A stretch of 64,000 nt of DNA, from contig NZ_JH126470.1 in assembly GCF_000225705.1 (NCBI RefSeq), positions 124,001 to 188,000 of the forward strand, read 5' to 3'. The notes beneath the pieces were generated by a model. The model worked only from the letters and a program-made list of their open reading frames with translations, was not told where the DNA came from and made no database searches. Both the position numbers and the translations under genes were made by a program. This DNA is from Collinsella tanakaei YIT 12063. GTDB taxonomy: Bacteria > Actinomycetota > Coriobacteriia > Coriobacteriales > Coriobacteriaceae. The number at the start of each line of letters is the position of its first letter. Position 1 is the first letter of the stretch. Shown here in pieces: positions 2,080-26,521 of the stretch.

Positions 2080-2943
2080 CTACGCGCTGTGCTGCGCCAA
2101 GAAGTCGGCGAGCGCGTCGGTGACGTTCATGATGTCCTCTTCGTAAATCTCGCCGATGTTGCCCATGCGGAACGTCTCCTCGTCCGTGAGCTTGCCGGGA
2201 TACAGCACGTAGCCGCGGTCCTTGATGTAGTCATACATCTCGGCAAAGCTAAACGTCGCGCCTTGCGGATAGTAGAACGTGGTGATGATGGGTCCCTGAT
2301 GGTGGTCCAGGTACGCTTTGAAGCCCATGGCCTCCATGCGCCGGGTCAGCAGGCGCTGGTTGGCGGCGTAGCGCGCGGCGCGAGCGGGGATGCCGCCCTT
2401 CTCCTCGAGCTCGCGCAGGGCCTGGGCAAACGCCAACACCACGTGGGTAGGCGAAGTGTAGCGCCACTTGCCGTCGCGCTCCATGGGGACCCACTGGTCG
2501 TAGAGGTCCATCGACAGGCTGCGCGCTTTGCCCGCGCTGGCCTCCAGCTTGTCGCGGCGGCAGATGATGAACGAGAATCCGGGCACGCCTTGAATACCCT
2601 TGTTGGCGCTGGACACCAAGAAGTCGATGTGCCAGTCCTCCACGGGCATCTCCACGCAGGCGAAGCTGGACATGGCGTCGACAATAAAGGTGAGCCCGCG
2701 CTCATGGCACAGCTCGCCAACCGGGGCGATGCCGTTCAGCAGGCCCGTGGTGGTTTCGGAGTGCACCATGCACACGTGGGTGATCGCCGGGTCGGCGTCC
2801 AGCATCTCGCGGATGCGCTCCACGTGCGGAATGTCGCTGTAGGGCTCGGAGTACACCGCATGCGGCACGCGGGCGTGGCGGCATACCTCCACCATACGGT
2901 CGCCGTAGGCGCCGTTGGAGCGCACTCGTTCGGGGTATAATAA
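2080..2943 (-). pseudogene. phnW: 2-aminoethylphosphonate:pyruvate transaminase, 5'-truncated
   Basis: PhnW is a PLP enzyme that turns 2-aminoethylphosphonate plus pyruvate into phosphonoacetaldehyde and alanine. The remaining frame gives about 281 residues from a GTG at 2925, starting at the motif SNGAYGDRM, which normally lies about 85 residues into a protein of roughly 365 residues. The PLP lysine region SSANKGIQGVPGF and the C-terminal domain are intact. Upstream the frame closes at a TGA (2944-2946), and a hairpin occupies the place of the missing 5' end, so the start, the N-terminal segment and the promoter are gone. The break looks like a deletion junction rather than a point mutation. 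phnX follows on the same strand. I regard it as a pseudogene; an unusually short functional form is unlikely because part of the PLP-binding fold is missing. Confidence 0.85.
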
Positions 2944-2948
2944 TCAAA

Positions 2949-2998
2949 GGAACGGCATGCCGCCCTCTACTGTTGAGGTTTTCGGTGCCGTTCCATTT
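2949..2998. terminator. Inverted repeat abutting truncated phnW
   Basis: GGAACGGCA (2949-2957) pairs with TGCCGTTCC (2986-2994). T-rich sequence follows on both sides (ATTTTATTT on plus, TTTGATTATTAT on minus), so it could terminate in either direction. It marks the deletion junction at the 5' end of the phnW remnant. Confidence 0.6.
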
Positions 2999-3084
2999 TA
3001 TTTGATGGTCAGATAGTTCCCAGATTTAAGTAATAATCGAATCGACTTTACGTCTCGCGCGGGACTGAGGCAACGCAGAAGTTT

Positions 3085-3119
3085 AAGCCGGGTTGGGATT
3101 GTTCCCAGCCCGGCTTTTT
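3085..3119 (+). terminator. Orphan plus-strand intrinsic terminator
   Basis: AAGCCGGGTTGGGA (3085-3098) pairs with TCCCAGCCCGGCTT (3103-3116) with one mismatch, followed by TTT. It has a clear plus-strand polarity but there is no plus-strand gene upstream in the window nearer than tyrS. It may be left from a deleted gene or may end a small RNA. Confidence 0.7.
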
Positions 3120-3185
3120 GCGCGCGGGGCGTCGCGTGCGGTTTTGGCCATGGTTGCGGGTGTTGCCGTGTCTGCGGCGTCGACG

Positions 3186-3474
3186 CTGTTTTTGGGGTTC
3201 AGTTGGACTTCGCCCTCTGCTGAAATCAGCCTCCGTCTCACCCTGCTTGCTATTAATGCGGTCCAGTTGGAGTTGCGTGGATTGCGGAATACAAAGAGCG
3301 TGGCTTCTACCTGCGCTTTCTCGCAAGAGATTGCATTAGCCCGCTGGGAGAAGTCCAACTGGACGTCATTTTCAGCATCCCCAAGTCCAACTGGACCTAA
3401 AAAGTAGCATGAGGGTGCGCACGGACCTCAATTTCAGCAGAGGACGAAGTCCAACTGGAGCTCGAAAATAGCGT
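3186..3474. repeat. Inverted array of 32-bp periodic TCCAACTG units, copy 1
   Basis: On the left the motif CAGTTGGA occurs at 3200 and 3264, 64 bp apart, with a degenerate unit between. On the right its reverse complement TCCAACTG occurs at 3354, 3386 and 3450, with spacings of 32 and 64 bp. The two arms point toward each other across exactly 82 bp (3272-3353). Most units also carry a TTTTAGCA or TTTCAGCA-like block. Copy 2 at 25.93-26.24 kb has the same architecture and the same 82-bp core length. The element overlaps the 3' end of the degenerate ABC ATPase frame. It is not a CRISPR array: the units are degenerate and have no unique spacers. Confidence 0.8.
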
Positions 3475-3852
3475 GATCATCGAATGCCCGCCAGCGAGGC
3501 GAAGAGAAGTCGAGTCCAGGCTTGTCGACGGCGCCGGTGGTGACGACGTCGATGTTGCCGCGCCGCCGTGCAAGTAGGGCTTCGCGCCGGCATAGTAGGC
3601 GCCATGGCATGCCTGAAAGACGATGTTGAAGCCGCGCTTCTCCATGGGCGTGCGCGTGATGTCGTCGCCGTTCCACAAAATCTGGCCGTCCGCGGCGTCC
3701 GTGATGTCGAGCAAGATGTTGAGCAGCGTGGTCTCGCCGCCTCCGGACGGTCCCAGCACCGAGACGATCTGTCCGTCCTCGATGGCGAGGTCGATGTCGT
3801 CCAAAACGCGGTGGTCCGCATACGTCTTGCCGACATGCTCGAGTTCGAGCAT
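3397..3852 (-). pseudogene. ABC transporter ATPase stub (phosphonate-type uptake)
   Basis: The first 80 or so codons (3613-3852) encode the N-terminal part of an importer ATPase of the PotA/FbpC/PhnT type: a start after AAGGGGG, the beta strands, Walker A, and the Q-loop run RGFNIVFQ. Homology then stops. There is no signature motif, Walker B or H-loop, and the frame runs into unrelated sequence and the repeat element. Walker A reads GPSGGGETT, so the ATP-binding lysine is glutamate (GAG instead of AAG). The gene is therefore dead twice over. Its position upstream of phnW and phnX on the same strand suggests it once imported 2-aminoethylphosphonate; that substrate is an inference from context only. 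A second frame around 3450-3560 may hold fragments of another lost gene that I cannot identify. Confidence 0.8.
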
Positions 3853-10205: not shown

Positions 10206-10290
10206 TAGACTGTCAAGGCTGTTTTGCCTTGGTCGGAAACCAAGGCACCCCTTAGTTCTGGTCGGTAACCAGAACGCGAGTAATAAGAGG
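10206..10290 (+). promoter_or_regulatory. rpmE leader with tandem hairpins (L31 leader type)
   Basis: A -10-like TAGACT (10206-10211) is followed by two similar hairpins. TGCCTTGG (10225-10232) pairs with CCAAGGCA (10240-10247), and GTTCTGG (10255-10261) pairs with CCAGAAC (10269-10275). Both close on GGTCGG(A/T)AACC, so loop and closing pairs are conserved while the outer stem changes. It lies directly before the rpmE ribosome site. Leaders of this kind, called L31-Corio among ribosomal-protein leader motifs, are known from Coriobacteria; I assign it by position and form, not by a covariance search. Probable role: L31 binds its own mRNA and represses translation. Confidence 0.65.
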
Positions 10291-10299
10291 AGCCCTGCC

Positions 10300-25890: not shown

Positions 25891-25927
25891 CAGGGGGGGG
25901 TTCTGCGTACGCGCGGACCCCCTCTTG
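25891..25927 (+). terminator. Probable terminator after transketolase
   Basis: The G-run at 25892-25900 pairs with CCCCC around 25918-25924, with an inner GCGTACGC palindrome. CTCTTGC follows, so the T-tract is weak. Just upstream (25854-25881) AACTAG occurs three times within 28 bp. Confidence 0.5.
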
Positions 25928-26243
25928 CTATTTTTGGCCTTCAGTTGGAGTTGCGCTCTGCTAAAAAGAGCCTTCATGTTGCCTGAATTGCTAAAAATCA
26001 CCTCCAGTTGGAGTTGATGTCAATCAGCGATAAGGGATGCGGCTCATCTACCTGCAGATTCTCTAAACCATCGTATCCATGAATCCGCGCCAAGTCCAAC
26101 TGAAGGTCGATTTCAGCAGTGCCAAGTCCAACTGGACCGTAAAAATAGCATCCAACTCCAACTGGTCCGCGATTTTAGCAAGCCAACTCCAACTGAAGCT
26201 CGATTTCAGTACAGCCAACTCCAACTGGAGGCTGAAAATAGCA
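25927..26243. repeat. Inverted array of 31-bp periodic TCCAACTG units, copy 2
   Basis: On the left CAGTTGGA occurs at 25942 and 26005 (63 bp apart, with a degenerate unit between). On the right TCCAACTG occurs at 26095, 26127, 26157, 26188 and 26220 (spacing 32, 30, 31, 32). The core between arms is 82 bp (26013-26094), the same as in copy 1 at 3.2-3.5 kb. Units add a TTTTAGCA or TTTCAGCA block about 10 bp after the motif. Little of the core is shared except a TCTACCTGC block. No open frame of coding character lies here. Confidence 0.85.
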
Positions 26244-26402
26244 GGACGAAGCGGACGGCGCAGGTGAAGCGGACGAAGCGGGCGACGCTGACGAGGCAGG
26301 CGAAGTAGGCGACGCTGACGAGAAGGACGAAGTGGGCGAAGCGGGCGACGCTGACGAGACGGGCGAAGTAGGCGACGCAGGCGAGGCAGGGCGACACGGG
26401 CG
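26242..26402. repeat. Minisatellite with 9-bp register
   Basis: About 160 bp are built from degenerate GGCGACGCTGACGAG-like 9-bp steps; that 15-mer occurs at 26281, 26308 and 26344 (27 and 36 bp apart). One plus frame reads Asp/Glu/Ala/Gly repeats but has an in-frame stop just upstream and no start; the minus frames read Ser/Pro or hydrophobic repeats. I regard it as a non-coding tandem repeat directly abutting the periodic array. Confidence 0.75.
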
Positions 26403-26521
26403 AAGCTCTATTTCGGCATGTCGATAACGCGCCTTATCGTGCTTGTTCTGTGCATCTGCGCAGGTCTTGCTAAAATAGCAAACGCATATGTAGTTCAAAC
26501 GCACGACACGAAGGAGCTCTA

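Follow-up and report, generated by a model that had tools for sequence, protein, structure and literature searches.

A dispersed 288-bp element with phased, inverted unit arrays around a core of fixed length in Collinsella tanakaei YIT 12063

The window analysed here is a stretch of 64,000 nucleotides (G000:C4:124001-188000) of the 2.49-Mb, 20-contig genome of C. tanakaei YIT 12063 (G000). It carries two inverted arrays of short units, at 25.9-26.2 kb (copy A) and 3.2-3.5 kb (copy B), for which the initial annotation had described one shared architecture; both are confirmed, and they belong to a family of 13 copies in the genome. Orientation was set by the core centre, and L and R denote units of the left and right arms. 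Copy A (L051) is made up as follows:

25927-26242, plus strand: element copy A, 316 bp with GCT...AGC ends; canonical plan with one extra right unit, core centre TACCTGC on the plus strand
25925-25953, minus strand: unit L3, TTGCTATTTTTGGCCTTCAGTTGGAGTTG
25958-25987, minus strand: unit L2*, variant box, TCATGTTGCCTGAA replacing TCAGTTGGACTTGG
25988-26016, minus strand: unit L1
26013-26094, plus strand: core, the 82 bp enclosed by the inner 8-mers
26047-26063, plus strand: conserved core centre, TCTACCTGCAGATTCTC
26090-26118, plus strand: unit R1, T-tract type
26122-26150, plus strand: unit R2, A-tract type
26152-26180, plus strand: unit R3, full motif where most other copies have the variant box
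26183-26211, plus strand: unit R4
26215-26243, plus strand: unit R5, outermost

Degenerate minisatellites directly abut two copies of the element, at window 26241-26407 and to the right of L045 (the copy at C3:48 kb), with the sequences GCAGGCGAAGCGGGCGACGCTGACGAG and GCGCCCAACC, respectively (the L045 flank read in core orientation). Elsewhere in the window, an L31-Coriobacteria ribosomal protein leader lies at 10255-10292 (Rfam RF03128). Copy B (L050) comprises the following:

3185-3472, plus strand: element copy B, of the canonical length, 288 bp; nearly identical in part to the copy at C4:118160-118447, which it duplicates
3185-3210, minus strand: unit L3
3215-3245, minus strand: unit L2*, variant box, CCTCCGTCTCACCC, read also from the near-identical L049
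3248-3274, minus strand: unit L1
3272-3353, plus strand: core, 82 bp
3306-3322, plus strand: conserved core centre, TCTACCTGCGCTTTCTC
3351-3377, plus strand: unit R1
3383-3412, plus strand: unit R2
3413-3439, plus strand: unit R3*, variant box
3444-3472, plus strand: unit R4

The two window copies are only ~68% identical to each other over the element. Copy B instead belongs to a segment of ~550 bp that duplicates the copy at C4:118160-118447, which lies 9 kb upstream and outside the window; from L1 rightwards, flank included, the two are identical, but in the left arm identity is 85-90%, a pattern that looks like conversion. The neighbours of copy B (window 2080-3852) are a class-V aminotransferase gene truncated at the N-terminal end and an ABC ATPase gene that lacks the C-terminal half, which places copy B at a rearrangement junction. 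The duplicated segment ends approximately where the ABC gene is cut.

The window contains 13 occurrences of the motif TCCAACTG where 1.4 are expected, a count that none of 100 shuffles reached, and all but one of these occurrences fall within the two elements. Searching the genome for CAGTTGGA-N75..100-TCCAACTG returned 10 places, versus 0 for the reversed control, with a gap of N82 in nine and N81 in one. A sequence model built from L1-core-R1-R2 identified 13 element copies (97-111 bits), two of them in the window; every weaker match of the model fell inside the same 13 loci, which indicates that the genome holds no solo units.

The canonical element runs for 288 bp from GCT to AGC and consists of L3, L2*, L1, the 82-bp core, R1, R2, R3* and R4, that is, seven units, three on the left and four on the right, inverted and all facing the core. 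The units follow the consensus CAAGTCCAACTGGAGGYCGTTTTCAGCA at unit-to-unit distances of 31-32 bp, with an A-tract alternative (...CCAAAAAYAGCA) found mainly at R2 and R4, and each contains a second conserved box, a W-tract with AGCA, ~14 bp from the first. In L2* and R3* the TCCAAC half is replaced by a variant box (RGGTGYAAACGGAGG...), except that R3* of copy A and of the copy on C8 has the full motif; what had been annotated as a degenerate unit is thus a conserved variant at fixed places and not the result of decay. The start-to-start spacing of R1 and R2 is 32 in all 12 distinct copies, that of R2 and R4 is 64 ± 2 in the copies that have a fourth unit, and in both window copies the spacing was confirmed as 30-32 or about 63-64 bp. 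Element length is 288 bp in 6 of the 13 copies and 287 and 290 bp in two others, and the remainder differ by gain or loss of approximately one or two units' material. The annotation had placed all motifs on one DNA face, and this holds within an arm, where 31-32 bp correspond to ~3 turns; it ends at the core, since the L1 and R1 palindrome centres lie 92 bp, or ~8.8 turns, apart. Each arm is therefore helically phased, but the two arms are out of phase with each other. The array was also correctly held not to be a CRISPR, as the units are degenerate in sequence and inverted about the core and no cas gene is present among the identified flanking genes.

The exact 82-bp core reported for both window copies proved to be a property of the whole family: 12 of the 13 copies have a core of 82 bp, the other being shortened by a single 1-bp deletion, and core length is indeed constrained. 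The core sequence common to the copies is confined to a 17-bp asymmetric centre, YCTACCTGCNNTTTCYC. The flanks of this centre differ between copies at 65.5% of sites, compared with 73% for random sequence of the same composition, and have accumulated ~580 inferred substitutions (a corrected, rough star-tree estimate) versus one indel, the 1-bp deletion. When five disjoint pairs of copies were each left out in turn (leave-two-out), conserved unit columns differed at 32 of 277 sites and core flanks at 163 of 295 (p 8e-30). Conserved unit columns, near-saturated flanks and a single indel together show that constraint acts on the unit boxes and on the length of the core, and not on its sequence. 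A possible coding trace in the core, spotted by eye as FYLRFL in a single reading frame, was rejected because the frame is not kept across copies. A phased, inverted array of seven sites thus retains an exact spacer length despite a randomised spacer sequence, which provides comparative evidence for a rigid nucleoprotein assembly formed by a putative protein.

All copies are intergenic and lie between unrelated genes, in tandem, convergent and divergent layouts and in mixed orientation, in agreement with the original description of a dispersed element. The flanking genes, some of them named from translation, include those for alanyl-tRNA synthetase/AI-2E transporter, FAD oxidoreductase, LacI, ferredoxin, FCD/GntR, transpeptidase, SatD and transketolase/ftsE. 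The ends are terminal inverted repeats with precise common limits, GCT...AGC (288 bp in the canonical form), set in unrelated flanks. L041 and L044 are 84% identical over 294 bp, with homology that stops at the GCT/AGC edges and unrelated sequence beyond, and L048 and L045 show whole-element homology of ~74-80% that likewise ends at the element edges. This whole-unit homology between copies demonstrates duplicative spread. The copies are old and diverged, and the only recent pair moved together with its flanks.

The expectation of further copies was borne out in the genome itself, with its 13 loci, but failed for related genomes: the element is absent from 44 of 44 other Collinsella genomes, including the nearest relative (G024, ~84% nucleotide identity at the window locus), with one genome compared per species. 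With stricter filters, neither the class (397 other genomes) nor the phylum (395, overlapping samples) yielded a copy, nor did phages and plasmids by BLAST or viral contigs under a stricter unit pattern; CAGTTGGA-N-TCCAACTG scans of the genome and viral contig collections were too loose and gave chance matches in unrelated phyla. Searches of the literature brought up nothing of relevance on repeats of this kind in Collinsella or Coriobacteria. G024 lacks the element at two sites whose flanking genes are conserved, C1:480 kb and transketolase-ftsE, and at a third (C3:67 kb) the G024 gap of 178 bp is too short to hold it. In pairwise alignment these G024 intergenic regions are empty and too diverged for an exact insertion point to be placed.

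No target-site duplication was found in 12 copies, 3-9-mer flank matches being no more frequent than in permuted pairs, and the duplications of old insertions could have been lost. No recognised transposase is carried by or adjoins any copy, and neither an autonomous partner with the same ends nor a unit outside the 13 loci was found in the genome. Y1_Tnp had 0 matches in the genome, with 5 of 14 control genomes positive. Neither TnsB (rve with a Mu-type C-terminal part), an rve match above the cut-off nor tns genes were seen in the genome; its sole rve match is sub-threshold, lacks the motifs and, from our reading of the translation, is presumably an IS21-type istA next to istB. An IS21-type istA/istB pair at G000:C12 (L462) lies beside an IS110-like reading frame. 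Hairpins flank 6 of 26 element ends versus 12% of controls, and a target preference for terminator hairpins was judged unconvincing on these figures.

The architecture is typical of a protein assembly site, and the element looks like a docking site for a putative DNA-binding machine. In the mechanism we propose, the inverted arms would supply 3 + 4 binding sites of ~28 bp each, on one helical face per arm, onto which a single DNA-binding protein would load cooperatively. This protein would have to bridge the arms across a core in which length, not sequence, matters, while a second factor would probably contact the 17-bp core centre. The most likely binder would be a transposase or recombinase of the multi-site-end type. 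In that case the element would be MITE-like, the whole 288-bp unit having presumably spread to 13 unrelated intergenic sites. We tentatively favour this reading above the others, i.e. that of a non-coding, non-autonomous, MITE-like dispersed element whose arms are phased arrays of putative binding sites across a length-critical core. It is consistent with the recurrence of one plan at 13 unrelated intergenic sites, with the constant core length beside diverged core flanks, with the conserved unit positions and regular R1-R2 and R2-R4 spacing, with the empty sites in G024, with the GCT/AGC homology edges shared between copies and with the published case of a Tn7-like CAST whose site spacing follows the helical pitch (PMC10201428). 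Against it count the missing target-site duplications, linked transposase and Y1_Tnp, the sub-threshold IS21-type rve match as the only one, the age of the copies, of which just one pair is recent and moved with its flanks, and the strict end-to-end distance, a feature seldom seen at the ends of transposons.

A motif-free scan of G024 for inverted k-mers at a fixed gap revealed two strong families in this relative, CTCAGA-N17-TCTGAG and CGTATG-N38-CATACG, whose loci include the following:

G024:C28:108795-109807: RAYT-like ORF, flanked by CTCAGA(TT/AA)-N-(AA/TT)TCTGAG hairpins containing GTGCCTGTCCCT, about 19 loci
G024 C1:37392, C3:14153, C3:59059, C3:140548 and C4:63837: examples of CGTATG-N38-CATACG loci (L328-L407, L415-L449)
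G024 C4:68315, C4:68388, C12:200844 and C14:8077: further examples of CGTATG-N38-CATACG loci

The CTCAGA-N17-TCTGAG family, which flanks the RAYT-like gene, is a classical REPIN, part of a REPIN/RAYT system in Collinsella, and served as the positive control for the REPIN/RAYT test. CGTATG-N38-CATACG is present in 9 copies in G024 and in 0-1 in each of the other 44 genomes; its core is exactly 38 bp, its outward arrays are spaced 20, 30-31 and 42 bp, and its stem covaries (score 0.307 versus 0.138 shuffled, 0/500). Like the 82-bp-core element it combines near-palindromic inverted boxes, outward phased arrays and an exact core length in one genome, but its sequence is unrelated, its core is 38 bp long and its hairpin is covarying and REPIN-like, whereas the element is not a hairpin. 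G024 also carries a CRISPR array at C5:23640-25000 (repeat GGATCATCCCCGCGTACGCGGGGAGCAC, ~61-bp period).

The initial annotation had allowed that the two arms might pair into a large hairpin, and as a foldback or REPIN-like element, with the hairpin as the unit of movement or of RNA processing, the family would have the inverted arms, intergenic position and variable spacer of fixed length that are seen in REPINs (PMC3116915). When each unit was compared with its partner in the same element against partners in other elements, however, no significant excess of complementarity was detected in any of 12 L:R unit comparisons (all p>0.05), swapped A- and T-tracts break the pairing, and the RNAalifold covariation term of the element is ~0 (0.2). 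The same kind of test was strongly positive for CGTATG-N38-CATACG, so covariation can be picked up with about ten copies. As its arms do not covary, the element is conserved at the level of DNA and not as a hairpin, and, in a genome without Y1_Tnp/RAYT, the foldback reading is highly improbable. Cores show no stability beyond that of shuffles (mean z -0.1 and -0.5) and the element has no match among the curated covariance models of Rfam, so a structured core or ncRNA was rejected. A role as promoter or operator region, terminator or ncRNA gene acting on the neighbours, to which intergenic position, T-tracts at both ends and hairpins beside some ends would lend themselves, is also improbable, given that the flanking genes are unrelated and arranged convergently, divergently or in tandem, that hairpins in the flanks hardly exceed the control, that Rfam gives no match and that inspection by eye showed no promoter-like consensus in the conserved centre.

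That the copies are remnants of recombination-spread repeats, duplicated and drifting without present function, would suit copy B, which was carried along with its flanks through duplication and conversion, yet drift cannot preserve the boxes of the units and a core of 82 bp when the sequence of that core saturates; the contrast between indels and substitutions makes this reading very improbable. A rather unlikely but weightier alternative is a chromosomal site maintained by the host, i.e. a nucleoid anchor or a nucleation site for segregation or silencing, at which a host protein would spread along or bridge the arrays and selection would retain the copies. Continuing selection in place would suit copies that are old and diverged and still have intact sites and an exact core length, no partner transposase was detected, and the copies cluster, with five within ~91 kb of contig C3 (P ~0.007) and four within ~67 kb of C4. 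Housekeeping sites, parS among them, are as a rule conserved, whereas this element is missing from all other Collinsella genomes compared, the nearest relative included, so that the conservation across related species expected of a parS-like site was not seen; mixed orientation and flanking genes, and the duplicative spread indicated by whole-unit homology, also argue against a host site. Membership among REPINs and among Tn7-like elements fails on the features tested (hairpin, RAYT, rve/TnsB and target-site duplication), and for this reason we hold the MITE-like reading only tentatively and give the host-maintained site second place.

That the element of G024 is a different one, with a core of exactly 38 bp, suggests that fixed-core elements may be lineage-specific. 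Whether both represent one class of chromosomal site that is specific to a lineage and has a ruler-like core, with ~10 copies per species of an inverted array of its own, an invariant core length and no common sequence, is doubtful; if true, this would imply a pair of DNA site and protein in which the recognition sequence is swapped wholesale between sister species. The 13 natural variants of the element are a ready-made bait for its putative binding protein, and the element offers a test of how quickly pairs of site and protein turn over between species.

Small dispersed bacterial repeats usually consist of two inverted boxes or one hairpin. BIMEs, ERIC, NEMIS and RU, the enterobacterial and neisserial repeats, are like the element short, non-coding, dispersed and intergenic, but BIME units alternate in orientation whereas the arm units of the element all face the core. 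Plasmid centromeres such as R1 parC have a core of set length with phased iteron arrays to either side, as in the element, which differs in being chromosomal, dispersed in 13 copies and built of inverted arms; no par genes were recognised among the flanking genes examined. REPINs, the RAYT-mobilised REP doublets, in which the length and hairpin capacity of the spacer are critical features (PMC3116915), share inverted conserved boxes, a variable spacer of fixed length, intergenic position and lineage specificity, but the element is built of seven 31-32-bp units where REPINs have two REPs, shows no covariation of a hairpin, has an 82-bp core with a conserved unpaired centre and lies in a genome without RAYT (Y1_Tnp). 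The ends of Tn7-like transposons and CASTs (TnsB sites), together with MITEs that descend from multi-site-end transposons, resemble the element in having several transposase-type sites per end in asymmetric number (3 and 4), and site spacing follows the helical pitch both in a CRISPR-associated Tn7-like transposon (PMC10201428) and in the element, which differs in its genome lacking rve above the cut-off and tns genes, in the absence of a target-site duplication, in its fixed 82-bp interior and in its 31-32-bp spacing. Functionally, the nearest precedent for the element lies in transposase-type multi-site ends; anatomically, it lies in REPINs.
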